Origin: Haladaptatus cibarius D43
GTDB taxonomy: Archaea > Halobacteriota > Halobacteria > Halobacteriales > Haladaptataceae
Reading direction: 5' to 3'
Length of the DNA: 64,000 nt
Assembly: GCF_000710615.1 (NCBI RefSeq)
Contig: NZ_JDTH01000011.1
Location: 1 to 64,000, forward strand
The notes under the pieces are model-generated. The model did no database searches, had not been told where the DNA came from, and saw nothing but the letters and a program-made list of their open reading frames with translations. The position numbers and the translations under genes are program-made. Below, one piece after another: positions 15,586 to 42,093 of this stretch; positions within the stretch are counted from its first letter, which is position 1, and the number at the start of each line of letters is the position of its first letter.

Positions 15586-16022
15586 GGAGTGGTGTATAAA
15601 CGAGATGCTGTGGCCGCCGCTTCGAACCATTCAGAAATACACCTCGACGGCCATATCTGGGCTTTGAATAACACTGGTGCAGGGGAAATTACTCAAGTAA
15701 AAAAGCGATTAGCCATGAGAATCTTGATCGCTACGGCTTATTGTCGCGAGAAACACTTAAATGAGGGTCGGTGACCATTGTCCGTCAGAACACGTATTTC
15801 CCGACCACAATCGAACGTCCTGTTGTCGCTTTCCACTCCTTTCCGACGACCAGTGATTGTGTCGAGGGAAGCCAAAGTATATAAGCCGGGTTCGGAATGT
15901 GCGAAATGGTAAACGGTATGCGATCGTTGAGGTATGTTTTCGGAGGGAGCCAAACCTATTATAAATATGTAAAATACTCAGTTTAAAATACGGATGCGAT
16001 AAATGAATGATTGGAGTTCGGA
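15586..16022. promoter_or_regulatory. Leader of the phosphodiester glycosidase gene; no gene
   Basis: About 440 bases without a supported gene. Two TATA-like sites read towards the next gene: TATATAAG near 15878 and TTATAAATATG at 15959-15969, the latter 54 bases before ATG 16023. Base composition changes at this point from AT-rich to the GC-rich island that follows. Confidence 0.4.
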
Positions 16023-19000
16023 ATGCCAAAACGAAACACTTCAAAAACCAGACGGGACTATCTCAAAGGACTCGCCACGACGATAACTGCGGGTCTCGCA
16101 ACGACCACTACGACCGCCAGCGCGGCGGATGCAAGCCGATTCACCAGCGACCTTGGAGAAATCCGGGACGCCACGCTCGCCGCTAGCAGCGATGACGCCA
16201 TCATCGTGCAAAAGCGCTCGACGCGAGTCGCTCCCGGCATCACGCTCGATGCCTCCGTCCGCCTCACCGAACGCGGTTGGTTGGACTGCGACGTCCTCAC
16301 CGTAACGATGGATGGTGAGACCGGCGTGACGCTCCTCTCTTCAGGCGTCACGGAGCGCGATACCGTACCAAACCTTGCCGAGGAGTCGAACGCAGTCGCG
16401 GGTGTCAACGGCGATTTCTTCTACATCGGCGAATCGGACGCACCGGTCGGTGCCGAAATCGGCGACGGCAACCTCCGCTCGGGGCCGGCGACCGGCCGAG
16501 AACACACCGTCGCAGTCGGTGACGACGGCCTCGCTCGCCTGGCTCGCGTTATCCTTGACGGAGCAGTTCGATTCCACGGAACCAGCTATTCACTGAATTC
16601 ACTGAACCAACCAGATATCCCGGCGGACGGACTCGGACTGTACACCTCCCTTTGGGGAGACGCCGAACGCACCGGAGAGGCCGAAGTCGTCGTCCGGAAC
16701 GGAGTCGTCACGTCGACTTCGACCTCGCCCGGGAGCGCCACGATTCCCAACGATGGTTCCGTCCTCGTCGGCCGCGGCACTAGCGCTGACGCGCTGTCGA
16801 CCCTTTCAACCGGTGACGCGGTTTCGGTTTCTTACGGACCGCAAACCGACGCCGATGCGTCGCTACAGGCTGCAGTCGGCGGTTCGACCGTGCTGCTTCG
16901 CGACGGCGAAATTCCCAGCGGACTGGACGACGGTCGGCTCGAACCACGAACCGCGGTGGGCGTCTCGGAGGACGGTTTGACGCTCTATCTGCTCGTCGTC
17001 GACGGTCGCCAGCGAGACAGTCGCGGCGCATCCCTCAAAGAACTCGCGGAGGCTATGCGCGACCTCGGCGCAACCGACGCGCTCAACTTCGATGGCGGCG
17101 GTTCCTCGACGCTCGTCGCCCGGAACTCAGGCGAGGAATCCGTAAGCGTTCGAAACGACCCGTCGGATGGTGCGCCGCGTCCGGTGTCGAATGGGCTCGG
17201 GCTGACAACCGCGGAAGGGAGCGGAAGACTCGACGGATTCGACGTAACGCCGATGCTCGACGGTGAGAACACCCATCGCGTCTTCCCCGAGCTCTCCCGG
17301 CAGTTCGTGGCGAACGCACACGACGAGACGTACGCGCCAGTCGAAGCGATGCCTCGCCACTGGCGCACGATTCCGCGCTACTTCGGCCGGTTCGACGCCG
17401 ACGGTCTCTTTACGGGTCGACGCCGCGGCAGTGGGAAGGCAATCGCGCGAAAGCGAGGGAACAGCGGAACGACCGAGGTTCGAGTTCTCGACGACTTAGA
17501 CCGCATCGAACCCGACCAGACGCGAATCGGGTTGGCAGCCGGCGACACCCGGTCGTTCGCCGTCCTCGGCTTCGACGCCCGGGGCTACACCGCGCCGATA
17601 GCGCCACGGGATGTCACGCTCGACTACGATGATTCGCTCGTCAGTATCGAAGCCACTGACGAGGGTACGTTCACCGTCACGCCCACCGGCGGGAACGGCT
17701 CGACGCTTATCACCGTCTCCGTCCTTGACGAGGAGACCTACCTCCCGGTGTCTGTCGGCCTCACAACGAAGACCATTTCGAAGTTCGAAGATCCGACGAA
17801 GTGGTACTTCGCTCGGTATCCCAGCGCTGTCGAGGGATCCATGTCGTTCGTGAAGGGCCGCAGTGGAACGGGACTACGACTGGACTACGACTTCACGACG
17901 ACGACGGCGACCCGGGCCGCCTACGCCAGAACCGAATCGCCGATCGACCTCCCCGGCGAGCCACAGCGCGTCGGCGTCTGGATCGACGGCGACGGGAAGG
18001 GTGCGTGGATCCGTGGTGTTCTCACCGACGCAGCGGGCGTCACACACAAAATCGATTTTACCTACAGCCTCGACTGGACCGGATGGCAATATATCGAGGG
18101 AACCGTTCCCGCTGGCGTCGAGTACCCGCTCCAGTTCTCGTACTTTTACGCCGTCGAAGCGTCGGAAGCCCAACAGTACGAGGGGAGTCTCGTCTTCGAC
18201 GACCTCACCGTGAAGGTCACGCCACCGGTTTCGCGGCCCGAAAAGGCGGTTACTCCCGACCCACTCGTCGTCGAGGACGACGAACTCTCCGAGGATCGCT
18301 GGACCTTCGCTGTGATGGCCGACAGTCAGTTCGTCGCGGACGACCCTGACAGCCTCGCGGTGAACCTCGCTCGTCGCACCCTCCGTGAAATCGTCGCCGC
18401 CGACCCCGATTTTCTCGTCATCGCGGGCGACTTCGTAGACACCGGCTATCGCGAAGACTACGCCCTCGCCAACCGCATCCTCCGGGAGGAAGTCGGCGAC
18501 GCACTCCCGGTCTACTACCTCCCCGGTAACCACGAACGCACAGGCCCCGGCGACCTCTCGAACTTCAAAGCCGCCTTCGGCGACACTCGGTACACGTTCG
18601 ACCATGAAGGCACCCGCTTTTTCCTGTTGGACTCTTCGACAGGGTCGTTCCGCACGAGTGACTTCCAACAACTGTCCGACCTCCAGCGTGGTCTCAATGA
18701 TGCCGCCGACGCTGACGCCATCGAGAACGTCGTCGTCGTCGCACACCACCCACCGCGCGACCCGCTCGTCGGCGACAACAGTCAACTCGGCGACCGGATG
18801 GAAGCCGAACTCATCGAAGAGTGGCTAACGGCGTTCCGCGAACAGTCCGACGGCAAAGGCGCGGTGTACGTCGCTGGACACGCTGGCACGGTCGAGTTCA
18901 GCCGCGTCGAAGGCGTTCCGTACGTGGTTCTCGGAACGACCGGGAAGTATCCGTACGGCTCGCCGGACGACGGCGGCTTCCGCGAGTGGACATTGTTCGG

Positions 19001-19439
19001 TGTCGACCCGACGCCGAACCGGAGTCGGTCGCCCGCCGAGCGAACCGACTGGCTCCGTGCCGAAGTTCGTCCCCTCCTCACGGACGTGACGTTTGACACT
19101 CCGCAGTCACTGAGGGTCGGCGAATCACTCACCGTCTCTCCAACCGGCGTGCAGGACGCTGGCCTCACCTTCCCACTTCGTTACCCGGCGACCGTCCGCT
19201 GGTCCGGGAGCCAGAATCTCCACATCGCAGACAACGAGTGGTACCACCGCTTCGCGCGCGAGGACGATAACGACGAGCAGGAGGCGAACCGCAGCCGCTG
19301 GCACGGCCGCGACTACGCCGCCGCGTTCGACCCGGAAACGCGGCAACTCATCGCACTTGACACCGGAACCGTCACGCTCCGCGCTTCCTCCAACGGGGTG
19401 AGCGGCGAGACGACGATAACGATAACCGACGGGAACTGA
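16023..19439 (+). CDS. Secreted phosphodiester glycosidase - metallophosphatase fusion
   Basis: 1138 residues from ATG 16023 (a TTG at 16011 is also in frame). The N-terminus is a Tat signal (KTRRDYLKGLATTITAG, then an Ala-rich cleavage region), so it is exported folded. Residues about 40-370 form a phosphodiester glycosidase (NAGPA) domain, with GVNGDFFY and ALNFDGGGSSTLVAR motifs. The middle (about 420-740) holds Ig-like and carbohydrate-binding-like beta domains. Residues about 755-1010 form a calcineurin-type metallophosphatase with its metal motifs: DSQF, GDFVDT, GNHE, HHPP and GHAG. A C-terminal beta domain follows. The NAGPA family removes GlcNAc from GlcNAc-1-phospho-6-sugar diesters. 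Together with the downstream amino-sugar genes this suggests attack on phosphodiester-linked cell-surface glycans (inference). A hairpin terminator follows the stop. Confidence 0.88.
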   Translation: MPKRNTSKTRRDYLKGLATTITAGLATTTTTASAADASRFTSDLGEIRDATLAASSDDAIIVQKRSTRVAPGITLDASVRLTERGWLDCDVLTVTMDGETGVTLLSSGVTERDTVPNLAEESNAVAGVNGDFFYIGESDAPVGAEIGDGNLRSGPATGREHTVAVGDDGLARLARVILDGAVRFHGTSYSLNSLNQPDIPADGLGLYTSLWGDAERTGEAEVVVRNGVVTSTSTSPGSATIPNDGSVLVGRGTSADALSTLSTGDAVSVSYGPQTDADASLQAAVGGSTVLLRDGEIPSGLDDGRLEPRTAVGVSEDGLTLYLLVVDGRQRDSRGASLKELAEAMRDLGATDALNFDGGGSSTLVARNSGEESVSVRNDPSDGAPRPVSNGLGLTTAEGSGRLDGFDVTPMLDGENTHRVFPELSRQFVANAHDETYAPVEAMPRHWRTIPRYFGRFDADGLFTGRRRGSGKAIARKRGNSGTTEVRVLDDLDRIEPDQTRIGLAAGDTRSFAVLGFDARGYTAPIAPRDVTLDYDDSLVSIEATDEGTFTVTPTGGNGSTLITVSVLDEETYLPVSVGLTTKTISKFEDPTKWYFARYPSAVEGSMSFVKGRSGTGLRLDYDFTTTTATRAAYARTESPIDLPGEPQRVGVWIDGDGKGAWIRGVLTDAAGVTHKIDFTYSLDWTGWQYIEGTVPAGVEYPLQFSYFYAVEASEAQQYEGSLVFDDLTVKVTPPVSRPEKAVTPDPLVVEDDELSEDRWTFAVMADSQFVADDPDSLAVNLARRTLREIVAADPDFLVIAGDFVDTGYREDYALANRILREEVGDALPVYYLPGNHERTGPGDLSNFKAAFGDTRYTFDHEGTRFFLLDSSTGSFRTSDFQQLSDLQRGLNDAADADAIENVVVVAHHPPRDPLVGDNSQLGDRMEAELIEEWLTAFREQSDGKGAVYVAGHAGTVEFSRVEGVPYVVLGTTGKYPYGSPDDGGFREWTLFGVDPTPNRSRSPAERTDWLRAEVRPLLTDVTFDTPQSLRVGESLTVSPTGVQDAGLTFPLRYPATVRWSGSQNLHIADNEWYHRFAREDDNDEQEANRSRWHGRDYAAAFDPETRQLIALDTGTVTLRASSNGVSGETTITITDGN

Positions 19440-19806: not shown

Positions 19807-20196
19807 ATGGAAGAGATTAGCACCGACGCCGCACCGCCGAGCATCGGCCCGTTTTCGCAGGGAATTCGCGACGGGAACCGCATCTACGTCTCGGGACAGG
19901 GGCCAGTTGACCCCGAATCCGGCGATATCGTCGGCGACACCATCGAAGAGCAGACCGCTCGAACGCTCGAAAACATCGAGGCGGTTCTCGCGGCGGCGAA
20001 CCGCTCGCTTGACGACGTGGTGAAGGCGACTGTCTTCGTACAGGACATGGACGACTACGACGCCATCAACGACGTGTACGCCGACTACGTGTCCTCACCG
20101 TACCCCGCTCGGAGTGCGGTCCAAGTCGAGGATCTCCCCATCGACATCGGCGTCGAAATCGAAGTCGTCGCAAGCGCACGTGGGGCCGAGGAGTGA
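19807..20196 (+). CDS. ridA: RidA family enamine/imine deaminase
   Basis: 129 residues spanning the whole YjgF/YER057c/UK114 (RidA) family. Motifs are PPSIGPFSQGIRDGN, IYVSGQGPVDP, TLENIEAVLAAANRSLDDVV, KATVFVQDMDDY, and a C-terminal YPARSAVQVEDLPIDIGVEI carrying the catalytic Arg. RidA hydrolyses reactive 2-aminoacrylate-type enamines released by PLP-dependent ammonia lyases and is a homotrimer. A SelA-fold PLP enzyme lies two genes downstream (21322-22533), which fits that role. The next gene starts eight bases after this stop, so the two are probably co-transcribed. Preceded by the site GGAGGAAACCG before ATG. Confidence 0.93.
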   Translation: MEEISTDAAPPSIGPFSQGIRDGNRIYVSGQGPVDPESGDIVGDTIEEQTARTLENIEAVLAAANRSLDDVVKATVFVQDMDDYDAINDVYADYVSSPYPARSAVQVEDLPIDIGVEIEVVASARGAEE

Positions 20197-20203
20197 CGGG
20201 ACG

Positions 20204-21271
20204 ATGAGAGCCGTCGCGGTTCGGCGCGGCGAGACGACCCCCCGGGTCATCGACGTGCCGAGGCCGACCCCCGAGTCCGGCGAGGCGTTGGTACGGACGC
20301 TTCGCGTCGGCATCGATGGTACCGACCACGAAGTCGTCGGCGGAACCCACGGCGGCTTTCCAGACGGGGCGGAACATCAAATACTCGGCCACGAAGCGGT
20401 CGGAATCGTCGAGAACCCGAACGGGACGCGGTTCGACGCGGGTGACCTCGTCGTTCCGACGGTTCGGCGACCAACGGGGGACGGAAACGGGTACTTCGAA
20501 CGGGACGAACCCGACATGGCCCCCGACGGCGCGTACGTCGAACGCGGCATCGTCGGCGCGCACGGTTACATGGCCGACTACTTCACCAGCCACGAACGAT
20601 ACCTCGTCGGCGTCCCGGACGACTTTGCGACTCACGGCTTTCTGACCGAACCGGTCAGCAACAGCGAGAAAGCGTTCGAGCACGCCTACGCCAGCAGGTC
20701 AGCGTTCGAGTGGAGCCCCGAATCCGCGCTCGTTCTCGGCAACGGGCCGCTCGGTCTCCTGACCCTCTCGATGCTGGTCGAACGCGACGACTTCGACCGA
20801 TGCTACTGCCTCGGTCGCCGCGACCGTCCCGACCCGACCATCGAGATAATCGAGCGCCTCGGCGCGACCTACGTCGATTCACGCGAGACGCCGCTTCCGG
20901 ACGTTCCGGACGCACACGAATCGATGGACTTCATTTATGAAGCGACTGGACATGCACCCCACGCGTTCGAGACAGTCCACGCGCTCGCGCCGAACGGCGT
21001 CGGCGCGCTCCTCGGCATCCCCGGAGACGAGTCGTTCGAGGTCGAAGGCGGCCGAATTCATCGGGAGATGGTTCTCGAAAACAAGGCACTGCTCGGCAGC
21101 GTTAACTCGAACATCGGGCAGTACAAAGCGGCCAAGGAAACGCTGTCGGCGTTCCCCGACTGGTTTACCGACGACCTCATCACAGGCGTCTACGACCCCG
21201 GCGAGGTCGAACGGGCGTTCGAAACGGGCGACGACGTCATCAAAACCGTCGTCGAATTCGACACGGTGTAG
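20204..21271 (+). CDS. Glucose 1-dehydrogenase-like zinc-dependent medium-chain dehydrogenase
   Basis: 355 residues, the usual length of haloarchaeal glucose dehydrogenase. An N-terminal catalytic domain holds GIDGTDHEV (zinc Asp), LGHEAVGIVE (His-Glu) and LTEPVSNSEKAFE (Glu). A Rossmann domain begins ALVLGNGPLGLLTLSM. Family members oxidise aldoses at C1 to lactones with NAD(P). The start ATG 20204 lies eight bases after ridA. The substrate here could be glucose or an amino sugar from the island; sequence alone does not decide. Confidence 0.85.
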   Translation: MRAVAVRRGETTPRVIDVPRPTPESGEALVRTLRVGIDGTDHEVVGGTHGGFPDGAEHQILGHEAVGIVENPNGTRFDAGDLVVPTVRRPTGDGNGYFERDEPDMAPDGAYVERGIVGAHGYMADYFTSHERYLVGVPDDFATHGFLTEPVSNSEKAFEHAYASRSAFEWSPESALVLGNGPLGLLTLSMLVERDDFDRCYCLGRRDRPDPTIEIIERLGATYVDSRETPLPDVPDAHESMDFIYEATGHAPHAFETVHALAPNGVGALLGIPGDESFEVEGGRIHREMVLENKALLGSVNSNIGQYKAAKETLSAFPDWFTDDLITGVYDPGEVERAFETGDDVIKTVVEFDTV

Positions 21272-21321
21272 ACACACCGCGTCTGGCATCGATTCACCGA
21301 TTCGTTCCCGCCCTCTCTTCG

Positions 21322-22533
21322 TCACTGTTCGACTTGTGCGACGATGCGTTCGACGGCGTACTCGGCCTCCTCGTCGGTGAGACACATCGGGTTGACCGTG
21401 AATTTGCCCGCGGGGAGCGCGTCCGCGCCGACGAACACGCGGGGCTCCTCGCGGCGGAGTCCGCCGACAACGTCGGTCGCCGAGATGCCTGCGGTGTCTG
21501 CGTCCACCGAAACTACTACTTCCGGGGCGACGGCTGTTTTGTCGTCGGCCGTGAGCGACGTGTCGAACCCTGCGACCGCTTCGAGGTCGGTGGCGATTCG
21601 CCGCGAACGTCCGAGCCACTCCTCGACGAGCGCGTCGTGGTCTTCTTCGACGAACAGTTCGAGCGCGCGAATCAGTCCGACGAGTTCCTCCTTGCCGACC
21701 TTCATCGGGCGGCCGATTCCCTGTCGGGGGACGCCCCCGAGGCGGTCGGGGTCCACGAGTTCTCGCGCGGGTTCCCACACCTGCTCGGCGGCGTGCATGT
21801 CGAGGTGCTGGGCGGCCACCGATTCGATGAGGTCGTCCCGACCGGCGAGGATTCCCGTGGTCTGCGGGCCGCGAATCGCCTTCCCACCGCTGAACGCGAC
21901 GAGGTCCGCACCGGCGTCCACGAACGCCTCGAAGTTGCTCGTCGGCGGGAGTTCGGCGGCGGCATCCACGATGACTGGAACGCCGTGATCGTGGGCGATT
22001 TCGCACACCACCTCAAGGGGCGGTTCCGTGTAGGACTTTTCGATGTAGGCGACCGCCGCGGTGTCCTCTCCGATGGCGTCCCCGATTTCCCACGGTTCGA
22101 CGTTCCGCGACCCGGTGCCGAGGTGCTTGTCGTTCGTCCCGACGTCAACGATGCGCGCGCCGACCGCGCGGAGCGCGTGGTCGTACCCGGTGCGGTGGGT
22201 GCGCGGAACGACGATTTCGTCGGCGACACCGTCGGTGTCTGGGAGCCGCGTCATCGTTCCGAGGTCGTCACCCGCGATGCAGGCGGCCGCTCCGAGCGCG
22301 AGCGCGCTCGACGCGCCGGACGCGACGTAGCCCGCTTCGGCGCCAGTCACGTCCGCTATCAGTTCACTTGCTCTCGCCTGCAAATCGGAGAGGCGAACGA
22401 ACGACCCGGACGCGCGAGCCATCGCTTCGACCGCTTCCGGGCGAATACGACTGCCACCGATGCGGGTCTTCGTGCCGGTCGCGTTGACGACGTGTGGGAC
22501 GCCTAACTCCTCGTAGATAGTCTGGGTTGGCAT
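21322..22533 (-). CDS. SelA-fold PLP-dependent enzyme (aminosugar-acid or amino-acid lyase-like)
   Basis: 403 residues of the fold-type I PLP family that includes SelA and D-glucosaminate-6-phosphate ammonia lyase (DgaE). Signatures are VVNATGTKTRIGGSRI at the N-terminus, TGAEAGYVASGASSALALG, an Asp in VPVIVDAAAELPP, and the PLP Lys in VAFSGGKAIRGPQTTGILAG. It is not a true selenocysteine synthase, because the window has no SelB or tRNA-Sec context and the short SelA-like group is mostly catabolic. In an amino-sugar island an ammonia lyase acting on an aminosugar acid is plausible (inference). RidA nearby would handle enamine by-products. Divergent from the TIM-barrel gene at 22643, with 109 bases between. 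Confidence 0.8.
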   Translation of the reverse strand: MPTQTIYEELGVPHVVNATGTKTRIGGSRIRPEAVEAMARASGSFVRLSDLQARASELIADVTGAEAGYVASGASSALALGAAACIAGDDLGTMTRLPDTDGVADEIVVPRTHRTGYDHALRAVGARIVDVGTNDKHLGTGSRNVEPWEIGDAIGEDTAAVAYIEKSYTEPPLEVVCEIAHDHGVPVIVDAAAELPPTSNFEAFVDAGADLVAFSGGKAIRGPQTTGILAGRDDLIESVAAQHLDMHAAEQVWEPARELVDPDRLGGVPRQGIGRPMKVGKEELVGLIRALELFVEEDHDALVEEWLGRSRRIATDLEAVAGFDTSLTADDKTAVAPEVVVSVDADTAGISATDVVGGLRREEPRVFVGADALPAGKFTVNPMCLTDEEAEYAVERIVAQVEQ

Positions 22534-22642
22534 ACCAATTCTCGCGCACTCCGAGAGTAAAATAGGTTCGACGTTCGTCTCCCATTTGGTTCGTGTCGCT
22601 CATTTGTTTCACATCGATTACCGATACGTTCATGGGCACTGA

Positions 22643-23668
22643 ATGGACATCGATAACACGTCACGAACCATGTCCGACATCGAAACCGGTACCAGTTACT
22701 TCGGCGTACAGGATCCAGAACATGCGATAAGGGATTTGAACCGGTTCCGCGAGGCAGGTCTCGACGCCGTCCTCCACACGTTCAGCGAACGCGACCGGGC
22801 GTTCTACCGCGAGACGATGGCGGATATCGTCACCGCGAGCCACGATAGAGGACTGACGACCTACGTCAACCCGTGGGCGGTCGGCGGCGTCTTCGGCGGC
22901 GAGGAGTTCTCACGGTTCGTCGCCCGCAACCCCGACTCCCGACAGGTGCTCAACACGGGCGAGCGCGTCCCCGCCGCCTGCTTCAACGACCCGGCGTTTC
23001 GGAAGTTCATGCGCGAATGGACGCGGGACGCCGCCGGACTCGGCGCGGACGTACTCTTCTGGGACGAACCACATTGGCACAACGTCCACTGGTACGGCGA
23101 CGACCACCCCGACGACGTGTGGTGCTGTCGGTGCGACCACTGCCGGGAGCGGTACCGCGCCCGCTACGACGAACCGATGCCGGTGACCGAAACCGACCGA
23201 GTCTCGACGGTTCGCGAGCGGTCGATGGTCGAGTTCCTCGACGAGATGATGGCAGTGGCCCACGATGAAGGTGCGGAGAACGCGGTCTGTCTGCTCCCGA
23301 GTCAGTCCGCCGACCACGGAACGCGCGACTGGGCGCAGGTGGCTGAAAGCGAGTATCTCGACGTGCTGGCGACCGACCCGTACTGGGCGCACGCCCAAGA
23401 CGTCGATGCGGGCGAGTACGTCGCCCGGTTCGGCGAGCGACTGGTCTCGGTCGCCGACGACCACGACCTCCGGAGTCAGCTCTGGGTACAAGGATTCGGT
23501 CTCGAAGGCGAGTCGGCCACGGACGACGTTCGAACCGCGACTCGAACCGCACTCGACCTTGCCGACAGCGTCTTCATGTGGGGATACGATGGCTGCCGAA
23601 CCATCTCCGAAATCGCCTGCGAGGAACCGATGGCCGTCTGGAATGCCTACCTGGACGAGCTTCCCTGA
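22643..23668 (+). CDS. Orphan TIM-barrel, glycoside-hydrolase-like protein with a Cys cluster
   Basis: 341 residues, soluble, no signal peptide. The pattern of a (beta/alpha)8 barrel is visible: GLDAVLHTFSE, GLTTYVNPWAVGGVFGG, GLGADVLFWDEPHWHN, LLPSQSADHG, DVLATDPYW, LWVQGFGLEG, FMWGYDGCRTI. The WDEPH stretch has the carboxylate expected at the end of a catalytic strand. A Cys-rich loop WCCRCDHCRERY resembles metal-binding loops of some glycoside hydrolase-like barrels. The gene at 39617 is a distant relative with QCFCSACRER at the same place. No named family is recognised. Alternative starts are ATG 22643 or ATG 22670. Probably a cytosolic sugar-processing enzyme of the island. Confidence 0.7.
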   Translation: MDIDNTSRTMSDIETGTSYFGVQDPEHAIRDLNRFREAGLDAVLHTFSERDRAFYRETMADIVTASHDRGLTTYVNPWAVGGVFGGEEFSRFVARNPDSRQVLNTGERVPAACFNDPAFRKFMREWTRDAAGLGADVLFWDEPHWHNVHWYGDDHPDDVWCCRCDHCRERYRARYDEPMPVTETDRVSTVRERSMVEFLDEMMAVAHDEGAENAVCLLPSQSADHGTRDWAQVAESEYLDVLATDPYWAHAQDVDAGEYVARFGERLVSVADDHDLRSQLWVQGFGLEGESATDDVRTATRTALDLADSVFMWGYDGCRTISEIACEEPMAVWNAYLDELP

Positions 23669-23674
23669 TTCGTT

Positions 23675-24403
23675 CTACGTGACGCGGTCGATGACGCGGT
23701 TCCAGAGGGTCGGAAGTCGGTCCCACGAGAGCAACCCCTCCGGCGCCCAGTGGGGTGCACAGTCGGTCGCGTATGCGAACGAACTGCCGTCGCCGTAATC
23801 GCCAACTGTAAGGAACGGGTCGCCCCGAACCGTCGCCCAGACGTCCGCACCCGGTTTCGCCGTTGTTCGGTTGTATCCCAGAACGTGTGGCCACTCCTCG
23901 GGAAGGTCGGCACCCGGTACGCCCGCGTTCCGAGGGACAGCCCCGTCGGGCGTCTCCACGCGGTCGTCACCAGTTTCGATTTCGACTGGCAGCACGTCCG
24001 CCAGTGCGGTCGTTCCGTAGCGGGCTTGTCCTCCCTTTCCTGCGAAACTCATGTAGCCACCGACCATACCGAGCGCGCCGCCCTCTCTGACCCACTCGGC
24101 AAGCACCGCACAACGGTCTGCGTCCGTTTCGCCGTCGGCGACCTGGCGGGTTATCTGGAGCGTGTCTGCGCCCACGTCACTGAGAATCACGAGGTCGTAC
24201 TCCGACAGAGCTTCGTTGGTTCTCGGGAACGACTCGGCCGCGACGTGACACGGCTGGTAGGTCACCGACGCGCCGATCGATTCGAGCGTGTCGATGAACC
24301 GATCGGCGACTTCGCCGTATTGGCTGTCCCGAAGGACGTTTTTACCCTTGATTTCGAACTGTACTGTCACCCACGACTCACCGGCGAGGAGGACGTTCGT
24401 CAT
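23675..24403 (-). CDS. Glutamine amidotransferase-like protein, DUF1355 family
   Basis: 242 residues matching the GATase1-like family (DUF1355, PF07090): VLLAGESWVTVQFEIKG at the start, YDLVILSDVGADTL, the turn REGGALGMVGGYMSFAG and VTVGDY-type strands near the end. The nucleophile Cys of true amidotransferases is not evident: the elbow reads GMVGGYMSF. An amidotransferase activity is therefore doubtful. The family commonly sits with uncharacterised carbohydrate genes. It is convergent with the TIM-barrel gene upstream on the other strand, six bases apart at their ends. Confidence 0.75.
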   Translation of the reverse strand: MTNVLLAGESWVTVQFEIKGKNVLRDSQYGEVADRFIDTLESIGASVTYQPCHVAAESFPRTNEALSEYDLVILSDVGADTLQITRQVADGETDADRCAVLAEWVREGGALGMVGGYMSFAGKGGQARYGTTALADVLPVEIETGDDRVETPDGAVPRNAGVPGADLPEEWPHVLGYNRTTAKPGADVWATVRGDPFLTVGDYGDGSSFAYATDCAPHWAPEGLLSWDRLPTLWNRVIDRVT

Positions 24404-24480
24404 CGGTTGGGACTCACACGCACATCGGTTAACTGTATCGTTCGCCTGTCAATATCGGACGACGCCCCCAGAGTAAACGA

Positions 24481-24500
24481 CACGGGTCGGGTGACCCGTG
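24481..24500 (-). terminator. Perfect 8-bp hairpin between two co-directional genes
   Basis: CACGGGTC-GGGT-GACCCGTG, a perfect 8-bp stem with a 4-base loop, lies four bases beyond the PIG-L stop codon and upstream of the DUF1355 gene. A short ATTTTAAAA tract flanks it. Likely a terminator or RNA-stabilising hairpin for the PIG-L transcript. Confidence 0.5.
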
Positions 24501-24504
24501 GATT

Positions 24505-25329
24505 TTAAAACGGGAACAACCGCTCGGCCACCTCGTCGGTGAGCGGTCGGCCGTATTCGCTCGCTTCGAATGCCTCTGCGTACTCGACGGTTTCGGCGTC
24601 CTCGCCGTACCGCTCGACGAGGCAATCTCGGTAACGGTCGGCGACGTCTGTCAACGCCTCGACGTGCGGTAATCCACCATCACGTAGCCACTCGAATCGT
24701 GCGTCGGGGTCGTCGGGAACGTTTTCAAGGTCGTCTTCGACGAACGGGAGCCACTCGTACATCTGTGATTCGTGACAGTCCAGCATCTCGAACTTCCGCT
24801 CGACCACGTCGTCGATATCCACAACCACGTCAGGCGAGAACGGGTACGGTCGGTCGAACGTATCGCTCAGGTACGCAAATACAGGATTTTCGTCGAGCGC
24901 CGGCGTCGTCGGACAGATGTTCGGAACGGCCACGAGGTAGGCGGCGTCCCGCACGAGCTGGGCGGTGTATCTGTGGTCCGGATGGTAGTCGTTCGGCCGG
25001 TGAGTCAACACGAGGTCGGGTCGGAACTCGCGGACGAGTTCGATGAGGCGCTCGCGGTGTTCCAGCGACGGCTGTAACCGACCGTCGGGAATGTCAAACT
25101 GCTCGAACTCGACGCCAGCGACGTCCGCGGACGCCACGGCCTCCGAACGGCGACGTTGAACCAACGTCTGGCCCGCGAGTTCGTGATGGCCAGCAGCACC
25201 GTTCGTCATTGAAACGAATAGCACGTCGTGACCGCGGTCGGCGTACTTACAGGCGACGCCGCCTGCCTTGAGGTCACAGTCGTCGGGATGTGCGCCGACG
25301 ACGAGAACGCGGAGTGTCTCGGTTGGCAT
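24505..25329 (-). CDS. PIG-L / LmbE family deacetylase
   Basis: 274 residues. The zinc and catalytic motif AHPDD is at residues 13-17, with HRPNDYHPDHRYTAQLV supplying the second zinc His. Family members (PIG-L, MshB, BshB) remove the N-acetyl group from GlcNAc-containing substrates. The length is normal and there is no signal peptide, so it acts in the cytosol. In this island a GlcNAc or MurNAc derivative is the natural candidate substrate (inference). Divergent from the enolase-superfamily gene at 25450, and probably read separately from the DUF1355 gene because of the hairpin between them. Confidence 0.88.
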   Translation of the reverse strand: MPTETLRVLVVGAHPDDCDLKAGGVACKYADRGHDVLFVSMTNGAAGHHELAGQTLVQRRRSEAVASADVAGVEFEQFDIPDGRLQPSLEHRERLIELVREFRPDLVLTHRPNDYHPDHRYTAQLVRDAAYLVAVPNICPTTPALDENPVFAYLSDTFDRPYPFSPDVVVDIDDVVERKFEMLDCHESQMYEWLPFVEDDLENVPDDPDARFEWLRDGGLPHVEALTDVADRYRDCLVERYGEDAETVEYAEAFEASEYGRPLTDEVAERLFPF

Positions 25330-34944: not shown

Positions 34945-35919
34945 ATGAACTTCGAGGTTCGCCGACTCACCGACCACGGCGCAGTCTGTGCCGGTATCGA
35001 CTGCTGGAATCGAACGTATCCGGATTTTTCGCTTCCGAACCGATTGGTGGCCCAGAACATCTTCGCCCCCTTCGACGGTCTCGACGTGACGGCATGGGGA
35101 GCGTTCTCGGAAAACACGCTCGTCGGCGTCGTGGTCGGAAAACGACTCGTGGAGCAGATTCCCGACTACGACGGTTCCGAACAGGGATGGGTGAGCCTGT
35201 TCGCCGTCGATTCGACGGTCGAAGACGCTGCCGTCGCGGACGAACTGGTCGAAACGGTCGAACGAACCATGGCCAACCGAGGCGTCTCGAACCTTCGCGT
35301 CGGCGGCGATCCCGGCCAGTTCCTCCCCGGACTTCCCACCGCGTTCACCGACCTCCGTGAGACGCTCACCAACCACGGCTTCGAATCACGCGGCACCGTC
35401 CACGACCTACGGGGCGACATCGCGGCATTCGACGCCCCAGAGCGCATCACCCGGGTCGGCGAGTCCTGGCCCAACCTGACCGTCGAGCGGGTCGGCGCGG
35501 ACGTTGACCCACTCTATTCGTTCCTCGCCGACCAGTTCCCCGGTCGGTGGCGGTACGAGGCCGAGAACGTCTGTCGAGTTCCGGGCGGTGGCGACGACTA
35601 CTGGCTGCTTCGTCACGACGGCGAGTCGGTCGGGTTCGCTCGGACGAACACGCCGGACGGCGGATACCGCGGCGCGAACGTCAACTGGGCGGCCCGCCTC
35701 AACGGTGCGACCTGCGGTATCGGCCCCCTCGGCGTCCACGAATCCTATCGCGGTCGTAGCTGGGGGCTTTGGATGATCGCCTCCATCGTCGAACGCTACC
35801 GCGACGCCGGATACGAACGGATGAGCATCGACTGGACGGGACTGCTGGAGTACTATCGGAAACTCGGCTTCGAGCCATGGATCGAGTACGAGACGCTCAC
35901 GAAGGAGTTAGAGACATGA
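34945..35919 (+). CDS. Tandem GNAT-family N-acetyltransferase
   Basis: 324 residues from ATG 34945 (a GTG at 34927 is also in frame). The second GNAT unit is clear: GPLGVHESYRGRSWGLWMIA is motif A (acetyl-CoA pyrophosphate binding) and LLEYYRKLGFEPWIEYE is the C-terminal strand. The first half (about 1-160) has a weaker GNAT pattern, with AVDSTVEDAAVADELVETVE. The stop overlaps the AnmK start by four bases (ATGA), a strong sign that both are made together. Acetylation of a de-acetylated amino sugar or peptide amine is a reasonable guess (inference). Confidence 0.82.
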   Translation: MNFEVRRLTDHGAVCAGIDCWNRTYPDFSLPNRLVAQNIFAPFDGLDVTAWGAFSENTLVGVVVGKRLVEQIPDYDGSEQGWVSLFAVDSTVEDAAVADELVETVERTMANRGVSNLRVGGDPGQFLPGLPTAFTDLRETLTNHGFESRGTVHDLRGDIAAFDAPERITRVGESWPNLTVERVGADVDPLYSFLADQFPGRWRYEAENVCRVPGGGDDYWLLRHDGESVGFARTNTPDGGYRGANVNWAARLNGATCGIGPLGVHESYRGRSWGLWMIASIVERYRDAGYERMSIDWTGLLEYYRKLGFEPWIEYETLTKELET

Positions 35920-37130
35920 ACAACGATGACACTGAGGACGTCGGAGTTGACGCTCACCCGAACGAGCGCGTCGTCATCGGTCTCATGTCGGGGACGTCGC
36001 TCGACGGCGTGGACGCCGCTTGCTGTCGAATCCGGCGAGACGGTGACGGTCCACGCGGTTACGACGTGGCCGTTGAGTCGTTCGTCACGCATCCATACGA
36101 CGCCGCATTCCGAGAGCGCATCGCGGCCGTCTGCGGCGAGTCCGGAACCGTCGCGGAAGTGTGTGAGTTGAACGTCGCCCTCGGCGCGGTGTTCGCTGCC
36201 GCCGCCGAGGACGCTGCCGATGCCGCCGACCGCGCGGTCGCGGACATCGACCTCATCGGCTCGCACGGCCAAACCGTCCGACACGTTCCGGAACCGCAGT
36301 CACTCCCCGTCGATGACGGCCGGTTGCGCTCGACGCTGCAAATCGGTGACGGCAGCGTCATCGCCGAACGAACCGGCGTGCCGACGGTGGCGGATTTCCG
36401 AACGGCAGATATCGCGGCCGGCGGACACGGTGCGCCGCTCGTTCCGTTCGCCGACGTGGCGTTGCTCGCTGCCACCGACCGGTTTCGAGTCGCTCAGAAC
36501 GTCGGCGGTATCGCCAACTGCACGGCCCTCCCCCCGGATTCGAACCGCGGGGATGTGCGCGCCTTCGACACGGGACCGGGGAACATGGTCATCGATGGCG
36601 CCGTGGAACTGCTCACCGACGGCGAACGAACGTACGACAAGGACGGTCACCTCGCTCGTGCGGGAACCATCGAAGAAACCGTACTCAACGAATGCCTGCG
36701 TGGGGAGTACTTCCGCGCCGAACCGCCGAAATCGACCGGGCGCGAGCGGTTCGGTCGTGCGTACGCTCGTGATTTTCTGGCGGCGTGTCGTGCGCGAAAC
36801 TGCGGCGACGAAGACGTGGTCGCCACCGCAACCGCGCTGACGGCACACTCGATAGCGGACGCCTACCGGCGGTTCCTCCCGCGGATGCCCGACGAAGTCG
36901 TTATCTCCGGCGGCGGTGCGTACAACCCGACGCTGGTCGAGATGCTCGACGACGCGGTGGACGCCGACGTTCGAACCGTCGAAGAGTACGGTATCGGTGC
37001 CGACGCCAAGGAGGCGGTAGCGTTTGCGCTGCTCGCCGCCGCCGCGATGGATGGCGTTCCGAACAACGTTCCCAGCGCCACCGGCGCGTCCCGCCCCATC
37101 GTCATGGGGAAACGCTGTCCCCCGACCTGA
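35916..37130 (+). CDS. anmK: Anhydro-N-acetylmuramic acid kinase
   Basis: 404 residues. The family motifs are all present: GLMSGTSLDGVDAA (residues about 22-35, ATP-binding start), IGSHGQTVRH, VADFRTADIAAGGHGAPLVP, AQNVGGIANCT, FDTGPGNMVIDG and TYDKDGHLA. AnmK opens the 1,6-anhydro ring of anhMurNAc and phosphorylates it to MurNAc-6-phosphate, and is a marker of peptidoglycan recycling in bacteria. Archaea of this class have no murein, so the substrate must come from outside or be a related anhydro sugar. The start at ATG 35916 is coupled to the GNAT gene. A T-run terminator follows. Confidence 0.93.
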   Translation: MNNDDTEDVGVDAHPNERVVIGLMSGTSLDGVDAACCRIRRDGDGPRGYDVAVESFVTHPYDAAFRERIAAVCGESGTVAEVCELNVALGAVFAAAAEDAADAADRAVADIDLIGSHGQTVRHVPEPQSLPVDDGRLRSTLQIGDGSVIAERTGVPTVADFRTADIAAGGHGAPLVPFADVALLAATDRFRVAQNVGGIANCTALPPDSNRGDVRAFDTGPGNMVIDGAVELLTDGERTYDKDGHLARAGTIEETVLNECLRGEYFRAEPPKSTGRERFGRAYARDFLAACRARNCGDEDVVATATALTAHSIADAYRRFLPRMPDEVVISGGGAYNPTLVEMLDDAVDADVRTVEEYGIGADAKEAVAFALLAAAAMDGVPNNVPSATGASRPIVMGKRCPPT

Positions 37131-37131
37131 G

Positions 37132-37145
37132 TTCTCTTTTTTATT
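37132..37145 (+). terminator. T-rich terminator after anmK
   Basis: TTCTCTTTTTTATT directly after the stop codon, a typical archaeal T-run terminator closing the SDR-GNAT-AnmK unit. Confidence 0.55.
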
Positions 37146-37638
37146 CCGCCGAACTGCCGTGGCTGTCCCTGGCAACCGTAGGGAGCGACTCACCGGTCGA
37201 GCGCCCGCTGATGTGGGTTTACTGGTCGTTTCGAACTGGTCGAAATTATTTTTCTGCTCTGTGTCACCGCTAGCCACACCAAATCGGTGCGAGGGCGAGT
37301 CTATAGCCCGCTCGGATTAGCATTACACAACTAGTTTTGTAATACCTGTTGTTGGGTACAGTACCGTTCTGTCATCGAGCGAGATGCCTCAAAACAGACG
37401 TTCACGGACGTTCCGAAGCCGTTTCGGCTAGGTCGAAACGGGTGGTTGCTCGTGAGCAGACGCTAGACCGCATCGTCAACCTAATTCGCGGTCGTATCTT
37501 GCATCAAATACGTTTCGAGCCTCTCGAACAAAACTGGAGCGATGCCGCTCCACTAGCCACGGCTTATCATAAACAGAAATTTGACGCTCAACTCGACGAC
37601 GCCGGGGCGGCACAGCGACGGGACAGAGAAAGGCGACG
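37146..37638. other. Intergenic stretch between anmK and the HAD gene, nothing recognised
   Basis: About 490 bases. Several short open frames have no protein-like pattern. Base composition is lower in GC than the genes on both sides. Confidence 0.4.
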
Positions 37639-38325
37639 CTACGCGGACGGGTCAGAAACGACACCGGATAGATCGTGGAGGTCTGCGAGCGACGACACTT
37701 CGTGCGTGGGGGCTTCGGGGAGGGCGTAGCCCTCACGATGCGACCGACGGATGAATACTGAGTCGAGTCCGGCACTGTGTGCGGCGACGACGTCGCAGGC
37801 GCTGTCACCGATGTACAGGCCGTTCGCCCCGTCGAGGTCGGCCATCGCTCGTTCGAGGTAGTAGGTGGCCGGTTTGGTTCGTCGGAATCCGTCCACCGTC
37901 GGGATTCGTCCGTACACTGCGTCGAAGGAGTCTTCGAAGCCGAAACGCGTCAAGAGGTATTCGACGGTCGCATGCTGGTTGCTGCTGACGACGCCCATAT
38001 CGTGGGTGTCGGCGAGTTTGGAAAGAACGCGACAATCGTCGTACAGGCGACGCTCGCCGCTGTCCATCATGGCACACTGGAGGCGCGACGCGTTGCGCTC
38101 GCGCTTCGGCCAGAACGTCTCGAATTCGATGTCGTGTTCGGCACACGCTCGTCGCATGTCCTCGACCGTCGCGCCCGAGATGAACGCGTCGAGGTCGGCG
38201 TCCGCGGGCTCGACGCCGAACTCCTCGAAGGTGCTCGCGACTGCTCGCCGATAGACTTCGGGGTGTTCAGGGGGGAAGTCCAGCAACACGCCGTCCATGT
38301 CGAATAAGAGCGCGTCGTACGTCAT
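37639..38325 (-). CDS. HAD-family phosphatase (phosphoglycolate-phosphatase-like)
   Basis: 228 residues. HAD motif I is LFDMDGVLLD with both catalytic Asp, motif II VVSSNQH, the Lys of motif III in FRRTKPATYYLERA, and motif IV YIGDSACDVVAA. A helical cap lies between motifs I and II (about 18-85), typical of the phosphoglycolate/beta-phosphoglucomutase group. It releases phosphate from small metabolites. In this island a sugar phosphate such as MurNAc-6-P or GlcNAc-6-P is a candidate (inference). Divergent from the beta-lactamase-fold gene, 87 bases apart. Confidence 0.88.
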   Translation of the reverse strand: MTYDALLFDMDGVLLDFPPEHPEVYRRAVASTFEEFGVEPADADLDAFISGATVEDMRRACAEHDIEFETFWPKRERNASRLQCAMMDSGERRLYDDCRVLSKLADTHDMGVVSSNQHATVEYLLTRFGFEDSFDAVYGRIPTVDGFRRTKPATYYLERAMADLDGANGLYIGDSACDVVAAHSAGLDSVFIRRSHREGYALPEAPTHEVSSLADLHDLSGVVSDPSA

Positions 38326-38412
38326 TGCTACGTCGTAGCGACGGACGCAGTAATAGGTTATCGGTTGCGACAGTCCGAGCAGTTAAGAGGGTTCACCCGC
38401 CACTTCGGCAGG

Positions 38413-39462
38413 ATGACGAACTCGATGCAAAAAACGGACGACACACTCGACGCGTTTCTGACGCGGGGTCTCGATGAGACCGTCTATCCCGGTGCCGTAG
38501 CCGCGGTCGGCACCGCCGACGGTATCGACCGAGTCGCCACCACCGGCCGGAGAGACCCCGAGCGCGACGACGCGATGACCCGTACCACGGTCTTCGACGC
38601 CGCCTCGCTTACGAAACCGGTCGTAACGGCGACGACTGCGCTCTCACTCGTCGAATCGGGCGTCGTCGCCCTCTCGGACGAACTTCGTCGCTACTTCCCC
38701 GAATTAGAAGGCCACCGACGCGGCGAGATTCGATTGCTCGAACTGCTCACGCACAGTTCGGGCCTGCAACCGTACGCCTTCTCGAAATCGTGGGAGTCGC
38801 CAGCCGACGTGTTTGACGGCCTCCGCGACCGCTCGCTTCTCGAAGCCGAACCCGGTACCCGATACGAGTACAGTTGTCTCAACTTCGTTTATCTGGCCGA
38901 GGCACTCAGACGCGCCACCGACCGGTCGCTCGCCGATCTCGCCGAGACCCACGTCTTTGACCCGGTCGGGATGGACGCTTCGTGCCTCGGGCCGACCGAC
39001 GAGGCGAATCTCGCGGCGACCTACTGTCACGACCATCGAGACCGCACGTTGCGGGGCGAGGTTCACGACCCGCTGGGGTGGGCGATGGACGGCCACAGCG
39101 GGAACGCCGGCCTGTTCACGACGGTTGACGACCTCGCGGCGTTCGCACGAAGCTACCTCGTCGCGGACGGAACAATCCTCTCGGCGGCAACCGTCGAGCG
39201 GTTGCAAGACGACTGGCTGCCGGACTGCGCCGACCGCCACAGCCTCGGCTGGCGACTCGCCGATGGAACCTATCCCGCTCCGAACTGGTCGCGTCGTGGA
39301 CTCGGCCACACCGGCTACACCGGTACGTCGCTGTGGCTTGACCACGACCGCGACCGGTTCGCCGTGCTCCTCACCAATCAAGTCTACAACGGGAAGGACA
39401 CAGGACTCATCCGATTTCGCGAGCGGTTCCACGCGATGGTCGCCGCCGGACGCTTCGATTGA
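38413..39462 (+). CDS. Beta-lactamase-fold serine hydrolase (AmiE/YbbE-like)
   Basis: 349 residues from ATG 38413 (ATG 38425 also possible). Class C beta-lactamase/PBP4* fold motifs: SLTK (Ser nucleophile and Lys) in FDAASLTKPVVTA, YSCLN where the Tyr motif YxN is expected (the Asn position is Cys), and HTG in GHTGYTGTSLW. No signal peptide, so cytosolic. In Bacillus an enzyme of this fold, AmiE, sits beside NagZ and NamZ and removes the peptide from MurNAc. The gene order here makes the same role likely, though esterase activity is possible. Confidence 0.85.
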   Translation: MTNSMQKTDDTLDAFLTRGLDETVYPGAVAAVGTADGIDRVATTGRRDPERDDAMTRTTVFDAASLTKPVVTATTALSLVESGVVALSDELRRYFPELEGHRRGEIRLLELLTHSSGLQPYAFSKSWESPADVFDGLRDRSLLEAEPGTRYEYSCLNFVYLAEALRRATDRSLADLAETHVFDPVGMDASCLGPTDEANLAATYCHDHRDRTLRGEVHDPLGWAMDGHSGNAGLFTTVDDLAAFARSYLVADGTILSAATVERLQDDWLPDCADRHSLGWRLADGTYPAPNWSRRGLGHTGYTGTSLWLDHDRDRFAVLLTNQVYNGKDTGLIRFRERFHAMVAAGRFD

Positions 39463-39616
39463 CGGCGACCGTACTCCGTCCGTGGTTACGTCTCCGTCTG
39501 GTCACTTACACAGACTGATTCATCACCGAAACCGCTGGTGAGAAATCGAGCGCGTTTCGACCGAACATTCGCCACGACCGGGCAATATTTATTACGAGCC
39601 GCGTATCTTGGGAGAT

Positions 39617-40792
39617 ATGGTCGCAGTCTGGAGCTATCCGTGGCAATTGCTCTCACAAGACCCTGCCGAGACGCGGCAGGAGTTCGACGAGTTGGGCGTG
39701 ACGAGCGTCACTGTCGCCGCGCATTATCACTCCATTCGAACGCTTGACCCGCGTTCGGACGACGGTCTGTTCGAATCGTACGAAGGTGGTTGCTACTTCG
39801 ACCCTGACCGAGACGCGTTCACCGACACGCGAATCGATCCGCCAGTGAACGAAGTCGCCGGTTACGACGACCCGTTCGGGGCAGTCGTTGAGACGCTTCG
39901 AGAGGGGGGAATCGACGTGAACGCGTGGCTGGTTTGTTTTCACAACTCGAAGCTCGGGGGAAACAACCCCGAGTTCGGCGTTCAGAGCGCGTTTGGCGAC
40001 GCACACGACCACGCGTTCTGTCCGTCCCACGACGACGTCTCAGCGTATTTCGAGGGCGTCGTGCGCTCGCTCGCCGACTACGATATCGAAGTCATCAATC
40101 TCGAATCGCTCGGATTTCCGAGCGTCTTCCACGGCCACGGCGCGACGTTCGGTCACGCGAAAAACCACGTCGTCACCAACGCCGCAGAGGAGATACTCGT
40201 CTCGCAGTGTTTCTGTTCGGCGTGTCGGGAGCGAGCGGCGAACCACCCCGTGGATTTCGAGCGGGCCAAAGATGTCGTCCGAGACGTTGTCCGAAACGTG
40301 CTAAGCGAACCGACGCCGCAGGTTCGCTCGCTCGAACGCCTCACCGAAACCCACCCCGTTTTGGCGGAGTTGTTCGATTTCCGAGCGTCAGTCATCGACG
40401 AATTTCTGGCGGGCGTGGCGGCCGCCAGCGGCGACGTCGAACTCACCTACTCCGCGTCGGACGGTCTCGGCCGTGACCCGAACGACGGGTGGCCCGCTGG
40501 CGTCGTCCTCGACCGGGTTCGAACCTATTTAGACCGTATCGTGGCGCTCTGTTACACCGACGACCCCGATGTCGCCCGCCGACGCGTCCGACGCTATCGG
40601 GACGCGGTCGAGATACCCGTCGATGCCGGAGTTACCCTCGACCCCGGCATGGTCGAGTCCGAGTCGGAGTGGAAAACGGTCGTCAACAACGTCCGCGAAC
40701 TCGCCGACGACGTGCACATCTACAATCATTCTCTGATGAGCAAGGGCCACCGCGAGTGGTTCGACGTGACCACCCCCCACGCCCAGCAGTGA
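39617..40792 (+). CDS. Orphan TIM-barrel, glycoside-hydrolase-like protein with a Cys cluster
   Basis: 391 residues from ATG 39617, with a TATTTATTA promoter-like box 30 bases upstream. Barrel-like pattern: VTSVTVAAHYHSIRT, GIDVNAWLVCFHNSKLG, EVINLESLGFPSVFHGH, VELTYSASDGLG, IPVDAGVTLDPG, DVHIYNHSLM. The INLES stretch supplies a possible catalytic Glu. The Cys loop QCFCSACRERA matches in position the WCCRCDHCRER loop of 22643-23668, suggesting a shared family. No named family recognised. It sits directly upstream of namZ and nagZ, so a sugar-processing role in that pathway is likely (inference). Confidence 0.72.
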   Translation: MVAVWSYPWQLLSQDPAETRQEFDELGVTSVTVAAHYHSIRTLDPRSDDGLFESYEGGCYFDPDRDAFTDTRIDPPVNEVAGYDDPFGAVVETLREGGIDVNAWLVCFHNSKLGGNNPEFGVQSAFGDAHDHAFCPSHDDVSAYFEGVVRSLADYDIEVINLESLGFPSVFHGHGATFGHAKNHVVTNAAEEILVSQCFCSACRERAANHPVDFERAKDVVRDVVRNVLSEPTPQVRSLERLTETHPVLAELFDFRASVIDEFLAGVAAASGDVELTYSASDGLGRDPNDGWPAGVVLDRVRTYLDRIVALCYTDDPDVARRRVRRYRDAVEIPVDAGVTLDPGMVESESEWKTVVNNVRELADDVHIYNHSLMSKGHREWFDVTTPHAQQ

Positions 40793-40922
40793 TGAAACCC
40801 TGACTGAGAGTCCGACCGAAATCATACAATTGCGTTCGAATCGTGGCGTGATGACGTGGCCGTTCGCCGCGAATGGCATAGTCACACAATATTTTTTAAA
40901 CCCTCAATACGTTGCCAAAGAT

Positions 40923-42089
40923 ATGGTTCGACTGGGCGTAGAACGATTACTGGACGAGCGGGCCGACGTGGTCGAGGGCGACCGACTTGGTCTCATCACG
41001 AACCCGTCGGGGACTGACAGCAATCTCACCCCGACTATCGACCTGCTCAACGACCGCGACGCATTCGACCTCCGGAAGCTGTTCGGACCGGAACACGGTA
41101 TCAGGGGCGATGTGCAGGCAGGCGTAAAAGTCGACGACAGCACCGATGACCGAACCGGACTTCCGGTCAAGAGCCTCTACGGCGAACAGCGGAGACTCAG
41201 ACCCGAGATGCTCGCGGACATCGACACCGTCGTCTACGACATGCAGGACGTGGGTTGTCGGTTCTACACGCTCATCTACACGCTGGCGTACGCCCTCGAA
41301 GGGACTGCCGAGGCCGACAAACGCATCGTCGTCCTCGACCGCCCGAATCCCATCTCGCCGCTACCGGTTACCGGCAACCGAATCGGCGAGGAGAACTCCT
41401 CGTTCGTCGGCGGCTACGAACTCCCCATCGTCCACGGGTTGACCATCGGCGAGTTGGCGACGTACCTCAACGAGGAATTCGATATCGGTGCGCGTCTCGA
41501 TGTCGTCGAGATGCGCGACTGGTCGCGGTCGGACTGGTTCTCGGACACCGGCCTCCCGTGGGTGTACCCGTCACCGAACATGCCGACCCCGGGAACGGCG
41601 ACGCTGTACCCCGGTATGTGTTTCTTCGAAGGTACGAACCTCTCGGAAGGCCGCGGAACGACCAAACCGTTCGAACTCGTCGGTGCGCCGTGGATCGATG
41701 CCGACGCGTGGGCGACGGAGCTGTCGGAACAGGGACTTGACGGGGTCGCGTTCCGTCCAGCGTACTTCTCGCCGACATTCTCGAAACACGAACGAGAGAA
41801 CGTCACCGGCGTGCAAGTCCACGTCCTTGACCGCGACACCGTCAACCCCGTGACGGTCGGCCTCACGGTTCTGGCGTCCGCGTTCATGGCCGACGACCGG
41901 TGCGAGTGGATAGAGTACGACGACGGTTTCTTCGTCGATAAACTGGCGGGGGGGAGCTATCTCCGCGAGACGATAGACGACGCAGACACCGCGAGCGAGC
42001 CGCGGGACATCGCAGCGGAGATTACAGAGCACTGGGAAGACGACCTTGCCGAGTTCGCCGACGTGCGAGGGAATTATCGTCGATACTGA
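40923..42089 (+). CDS. namZ: DUF1343 / GH171 exo-beta-N-acetylmuramidase (NamZ-like)
   Basis: 388 residues from ATG 40923; the open frame extends upstream without homology. DUF1343 motifs: LITNPSGTD, FGPEHGIRGDVQAG (residues 54-67), DMQDVGCRFYT (106-116), VYPSPNMPTP (214-223) and EGTNLSEGRGTTKPFE (236-251). The Bacillus family member YbbC/NamZ releases MurNAc from the non-reducing end of peptidoglycan chains. No signal peptide, so it would act on imported fragments. nagZ follows after a 4-base gap. A TATA-like ATATTTTTTAAA lies about 30 bases before the start. Confidence 0.9.
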   Translation: MVRLGVERLLDERADVVEGDRLGLITNPSGTDSNLTPTIDLLNDRDAFDLRKLFGPEHGIRGDVQAGVKVDDSTDDRTGLPVKSLYGEQRRLRPEMLADIDTVVYDMQDVGCRFYTLIYTLAYALEGTAEADKRIVVLDRPNPISPLPVTGNRIGEENSSFVGGYELPIVHGLTIGELATYLNEEFDIGARLDVVEMRDWSRSDWFSDTGLPWVYPSPNMPTPGTATLYPGMCFFEGTNLSEGRGTTKPFELVGAPWIDADAWATELSEQGLDGVAFRPAYFSPTFSKHERENVTGVQVHVLDRDTVNPVTVGLTVLASAFMADDRCEWIEYDDGFFVDKLAGGSYLRETIDDADTASEPRDIAAEITEHWEDDLAEFADVRGNYRRY

Positions 42090-42093
42090 CCAG

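Follow-up and report, generated by a model that had tools for sequence, protein, structure and literature searches.

A 64,000-nucleotide stretch of DNA from Haladaptatus cibarius D43 (contig NZ_JDTH01000011.1, positions 1 to 64,000; hereafter the window) carries a gene that raises the question of where a haloarchaeon obtained a fusion of two seemingly secreted enzymes and what it would use it for. The gene (16023..19439, + strand) encodes 1138 amino acids from its ATG, with an alternative TTG start at 16011, and joins a phosphodiester glycosidase of the NAGPA family to a calcineurin-like metallophosphatase. It adjoins an island of genes that includes NamZ, NagZ and AnmK. An earlier note on this DNA had proposed that the protein cuts the linkage unit of wall teichoic acid (WTA), in which N-acetylglucosamine-1-phosphate is attached to C6 of N-acetylmuramic acid (GlcNAc-1-P-6-MurNAc), and so feeds the pathway downstream.

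The gene is a single long open reading frame (ORF) in the ORF list of the window and is intact throughout, from 16011 or 16023 to 19439. Its first part encodes a twin-arginine (Tat-type) signal region (MPKRNTSKTRRDYLKGLATTITAGLATTTTTASAAD; 16023..16130, +), identified by eye, with the motif TRRDYLKGL; an SRR or TRR motif is present in all six haloarchaeal orthologues, and the protein is predicted to be exported via Tat. The NAGPA (DUF2233) domain follows at residues ~124-396 (16392..17210, +). Pfam PF09992 matches residues 219-394 of it (E 3.1e-40; 138.6 bits against a cut-off of 25), and sequence features of the family extend N-terminally beyond this match to about residue 124, where AVAGVNGDFF is found. 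PDB matches to this domain comprise 3ohg, 5h3k, 6ozd and vertebrate NAGPA. The metallophosphatase domain occupies residues ~765-976 (18315..18950, +), with a PF00149 match at residues 784-953 (E 7.6e-12; 46.5 bits against a cut-off of 21.5). The AlphaFold model, for which 27 homologues were used (mean predicted local distance difference test score, 85.1), places immunoglobulin (Ig)-like and FlaA1/carbohydrate-binding-module-like β-sandwich domains between and after the two enzyme domains, in a middle region at residues ~397-742 (17211..18248, +) and a C-terminal β domain at residues ~1019-1138 (19077..19436, +). The best solved structures matched to the model by Foldseek fall into three groups, which we placed by means of the sequence hits: NAGPA/DUF2233 proteins in the N-terminal part, GpdQ, Rv0805 and purple acid phosphatases in the phosphatase part, and the flagellar sheath protein FlaA1 in the middle sandwich. 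FlaA1 (9cyn) also matches residues 641-702 in sequence. The middle region probably has a binding or spacer role.

The closest named relative, Haladaptatus litoreus, has the same locus, and its copy of the protein is 93% identical. Between the two genes, nonsynonymous divergence (dN) is 0.032 and synonymous divergence (dS) is 0.146, giving a dN/dS of about 0.22. All domains are constrained, and the metallophosphatase domain is the most constrained part (dN 0.021). The fusion gene, both enzyme domains included, is therefore under purifying selection, and the domain scores, the orthologue and the dN/dS together rule out a chance ORF. The earlier note's description of a secreted-type fusion of NAGPA and metallophosphatase with a Tat signal was thus confirmed, with secretion itself a prediction from the signal.

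We next considered the origin of the fusion. NAGPA was found in 2 of 391 Halobacteria genomes sampled, in five of nine Haladaptatus genomes and in one of about six Halocatena (G276 and G409 had identical coordinates and were counted as one), so that six distinct haloarchaeal genomes from these two genera carry the fusion. Full-length homologues occur in halophilic Bacillaceae (45-49% identity) and in many Actinomycetota (35-43%), and the two enzymes remain fused across Bacillaceae, Actinomycetota and archaea, which argues for a joint substrate. A quick, midpoint-rooted tree groups all haloarchaeal copies together (support 98), with the Bacillaceae proteins as their sister group (support 99). 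Because the fusion is rare in Halobacteria and groups beside the Bacillaceae clade, a bacterial origin is probable. The N-termini of the Bacillaceae homologues, read by eye, are Sec-like, whereas those of the haloarchaeal copies are Tat-type. The simplest reading of these sequences is that the fusion was probably acquired from bacteria, with a Tat-type signal replacing a Sec-like one.

An alignment of 86 homologous sequences served to assess the two active sites. In the NAGPA domain, conservation is strong at AVAGVNGDFF, PRTxxG (PRTAxG), DGRQ and N-x-DGGGS; the later of these motifs can also be aligned to vertebrate NAGPA. The metallophosphatase retains part of the canonical dinuclear ligand set (DxH, GDxxD, GNHD/E, H, GHxH): its ligand positions are D767, Q769 (replacing His), D803, N836, H908, H953 and G955, where the second motif-V His is lost. 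D767, D803, N836, H908 and H953 are kept in 76-78 of the 86 rows, and the rows without them mostly lack the whole domain. Motif I reads D-x-Q rather than D-x-H in 71 of the 86 rows, and motif V usually lacks its second His across the alignment; a Streptomyces-like group retains D-A-H, but its motif V is GHARG. The non-canonical metal site is therefore a conserved variant of this family and not a product of decay in the archaeon. Motif I varies in known metallophosphatase subfamilies too. With the ligand set of GpdQ as a guide, two ligands of one metal site are altered in the fusion phosphatase, so full phosphatase chemistry cannot be assumed. In a set of distant Bacillota homologues (L092, L094, L095, L097 and L100), the NAGPA motifs are kept and the metallophosphatase motifs are absent at the aligned positions.

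Of 292 Halobacteria genomes, 13 have NamZ and these same 13 have AnmK, with no other genome carrying either; the two genes thus pair strictly across organisms that lack peptidoglycan. All six distinct fusion-bearing haloarchaea, from two genera only, carry the NamZ/AnmK island. In the class sample, the fusion is found in 2 of the 13 island genomes and is missing from the other 11. By genus, the fusion is present in 2 of 77 and NamZ in 11 of 77, and the chance of both fusion genera falling among the NamZ genera is ~0.02, or ~0.13 once the source genus, which was ascertained, is set aside. Among 23 fusion-bearing bacteria, considered without their relatives as a baseline, NamZ is present in 15, a full AnmK in 17 and neither in 5, and all seven of the fusion-bearing Bacillaceae that were checked have both. 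This distribution would fit a function near amino-sugar utilization but does not establish one.

Physical linkage to the island was not conserved. In Haladaptatus G292, G296 and G297, the island order is kept, apart from single genes without a match, with the RidA-like gene (19807..20196, + in the window) at its edge and the fusion not beside it; a shortened island in G299 lacks matches to the glucose-dehydrogenase-like, DgaE-like, GATase1-like and PIG-L genes. The G296 and G299 islands occur without the fusion. The window genome and H. litoreus alone have the fusion next to RidA, outside this edge; the DNA common to both starts at window position 15700, ~300 bases before the fusion. In three of the five fusion-bearing Haladaptatus (G292, G293 and G297), a contig of 2.6-2.9 Mb carries the fusion, with unrelated genes around it, and NamZ lies on a second contig, whose length was 0.56-0.6 Mb in the two genomes for which it was read. 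In Halocatena, the fusion is ~190 kb from NamZ. Synteny in these relatives rules out the fusion as a core island gene. The proposal that the fusion belongs to the island's downstream pathway is thus not supported, since the island order is conserved without it and four of the six haloarchaeal copies are far away.

The bacterial neighbourhoods offered isolated leads. In Arthrobacter sp. MSA 4-2 (L047, 1664-7145), genes for a ROK-like kinase, MurQ, AnmK, NagB and NagA are located directly upstream of the fusion homologue, and in one Paucisalibacillus an amino-sugar phosphotransferase system cluster, named from sequence, adjoins it. Clustering of all ORFs from 35 bacterial loci in 19 genera revealed no conserved specific neighbour; candidate operon partners were rejected as the clusters were generic (ABC ATPase, aldehyde dehydrogenase, NAD epimerase) or consisted of shadow ORFs in other frames. 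Regulation through a PHO box was also rejected, as seven Bacillaceae upstream regions gave no signal; actinobacterial upstream regions had scattered weak matches (mean shuffle rank 0.45).

We propose, with about even confidence, that the fusion is a secreted, bacterially derived scavenger with two catalytic domains that acts on GlcNAc-1-phosphodiesters and phosphate; the two activities are deduced from family membership, and their order and the polymer are equally conjectural. The protein would be exported by Tat and held on a polymer by its β-sandwich domains. The NAGPA domain would hydrolyse the glycosidic bond of an α-GlcNAc- (or HexNAc-) 1-phosphodiester, yielding free sugar and a phosphomonoester on the other partner, and the metallophosphatase would next take off the exposed phosphate or cleave an adjacent phosphodiester. 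As its likely food we envisage polymer from the envelopes of Gram-positive neighbours, dead or competing; candidates are cell-wall polymers with sugar-1-phosphate, teichoic acids with their linkage units, and phosphorylated exopolysaccharides. GlcNAc and phosphate could then be used by the cell, and GlcNAc and muropeptides might be catabolized by enzymes that the adjoining island encodes; any metabolic link between fusion and island is putative. This proposal draws on the metallophosphatase fold and its conserved ligands, purifying selection, the stable fusion, the co-occurrence with the island, the Arthrobacter cluster and the secreted phosphatase ShfP discussed below. Several results weigh against it: two canonical His ligands are missing from the phosphatase site, four of the six fusion-bearing haloarchaea show no linkage between fusion and island, and neither a conserved bacterial neighbour nor a Bacillaceae PHO box was detected. 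The literature searched yielded no biochemical data on the NAGPA-metallophosphatase family. Teichoic acid synthesis is not known from haloarchaea, so a teichoic substrate would have to be exogenous.

Three other explanations were weighed against this scavenger. A dedicated cutter of the WTA linkage, one whose NAGPA domain removes the linkage GlcNAc and whose phosphatase clears MurNAc-6-phosphate, leaving a bare glycan for the adjacent NamZ, NagZ and AnmK, is improbable. The reaction chemistry of the NAGPA family fits such a cut, and the nesting of fusion-bearing haloarchaea among island-bearing ones, the Bacillaceae that carry NamZ and AnmK and the Arthrobacter cluster are what such a cutter would lead one to expect. 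However, most island genomes lack the fusion, most haloarchaeal fusions lie far from the island and some fusion-bearing bacteria have neither NamZ nor AnmK. In intact WTA, moreover, the linkage GlcNAc bears N-acetylmannosamine and the polymer, which would block an exo-acting NAGPA until they were stripped. The literature searched contained no enzymatic evidence for cleavage of GlcNAc-1-P-6-MurNAc, and nothing usable on NAGPA with teichoic acid or arabinogalactan was found beyond PMC11488536 and PMC12419801. The teichoic linkage is one candidate, and an improbable one, among several GlcNAc-1-phosphodiesters that include other sugar-1-phosphate polymers and nucleotide sugars. We consider it similarly improbable that Haladaptatus and Halocatena eat Gram-positive walls by an archaeal route built from bacterial genes, in which the fusion would strip the sugar-phosphate linkage of secondary wall polymers so that NamZ and NagZ can proceed.

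A general phosphate-scavenging exoenzyme acting on small phosphodiesters is a less remote alternative, although still a doubtful one. Here NAGPA would split UDP-GlcNAc, the phosphatase would take nucleotide phosphates and the adjoining island would be coincidental. Human NAGPA has been assayed using UDP-GlcNAc (PMC12024695), the fold relatives GpdQ and Rv0805 are broad phosphodiesterases, and the contexts of the fusion are variable and unrelated to cell-wall genes; the several β-sandwich domains suggest polymer binding instead, and the lack of PHO-box enrichment upstream in Bacillaceae also counts against this reading. The protein might also edit a surface polymer of its own envelope, as proposed for ShfP, in which case the phosphatase domain would have little activity or serve for binding, and only the NAGPA activity would matter. 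The D-x-Q motif I and the lost second motif-V His agree with this, as does the finding that Ala substitutions in the active-site motifs of Bacillus subtilis ShfP, including both motif-V His together, impair its function (PMC11488536). Yet the five other ligand positions are conserved, and the strong constraint on the phosphatase domain argues against a dead domain, which would be expected to drift. This explanation is therefore also unlikely.

The island beside the fusion consists, in order, of genes for RidA, a glucose-dehydrogenase-like protein, a DgaE-like ammonia lyase, a 341-residue protein, a GATase1-like protein, a PIG-L deacetylase, an enolase-superfamily protein, an oligopeptide ABC transporter, SDR, GNAT, AnmK, HAD and serine-hydrolase proteins, a 394-residue protein, NamZ, NagZ, a creatininase-like protein and GH18, with RidA and GH18 named from sequence. 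AnmK, NamZ and NagZ are located at 35769-43686. The 341- and 394-residue proteins (22643-23668 and 39608-40792) are conserved and have no Pfam or NCBIfam match. The RidA-like, glucose-dehydrogenase-like, DgaE/D-glucosaminate-6-phosphate ammonia lyase-like and PIG-L genes (19807-25329) suggest an oxidative glucosamine-to-glucosaminate route for GlcNAc. The MurQ etherase was rejected as the missing island step for MurNAc-6-phosphate: eight genomes of AnmK-bearing haloarchaea contained no full MurQ, only partial SIS-type matches inside ORFs of ~600-650 amino acids that are GlmS-like by length. Two ParA-like ORFs on the window contig (10481-10750 and 54778-55677, one of them short) suggest a plasmid-like or rearranged replicon.

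There is good evidence that haloarchaea took up a bacterial exoprotein with two enzyme domains and fitted it with a Tat signal. If the proposed function is correct, the protein would be an exoenzyme, open to assay, that frees GlcNAc and phosphate from the envelope polymers of bacteria in a host from which such polymers are not known, and haloarchaeal scavenging of bacterial walls would become directly testable.

Related known systems include unnamed proteins of ~1130 amino acids from Paucisalibacillus, Ornithinibacillus, Piscibacillus, Amycolatopsis, Nocardioides and others, which share the NAGPA-Ig-metallophosphatase order and near-full-length homology (35-49% identity) and differ in the Sec-like signal of the Bacillaceae members and in extra C-terminal sequence in some actinobacterial ones. 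NAGPA itself shares the domain fold and the motifs PRTAxG, VDG and N-x-DGGGS, and PDB matches include vertebrate NAGPA, BACOVA_00430, Slr0280 and BPSS2145; the vertebrate enzyme is a single-enzyme Golgi protein, whereas the haloarchaeal protein is predicted to be secreted and is fused to a metallophosphatase. GpdQ and Rv0805 share the metallophosphatase fold, and the GDxxD, GNHE/D and HHPP motifs align with GpdQ, but their DxH and GHxH metal ligands are DxQ and GHxG in the fusion. NAGPA also occurs in other multi-enzyme surface proteins of Bacillota (PMC12419801). A radiation of extracellular calcineurin-like phosphoesterases that are sometimes fused to NAGPA was described in 2024 (PMC11488536). 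Its member ShfP (YvnB), whose target the authors predict to be a surface component, for example (lipo)teichoic acid, likewise combines a secreted calcineurin-like domain with several Ig-like domains; by that paper's description it lacks NAGPA, and it keeps the motif-V residues H1114 and H1116 and NHD, in contrast to D-x-Q, NHE and GHAG in the fusion. The architecture is thus already on record. New here are a haloarchaeal clade of probable bacterial descent, the Tat-type signal of that clade, the conserved D-x-Q site and the evidence that the adjoining amino-sugar/muropeptide island does not regularly include the fusion.
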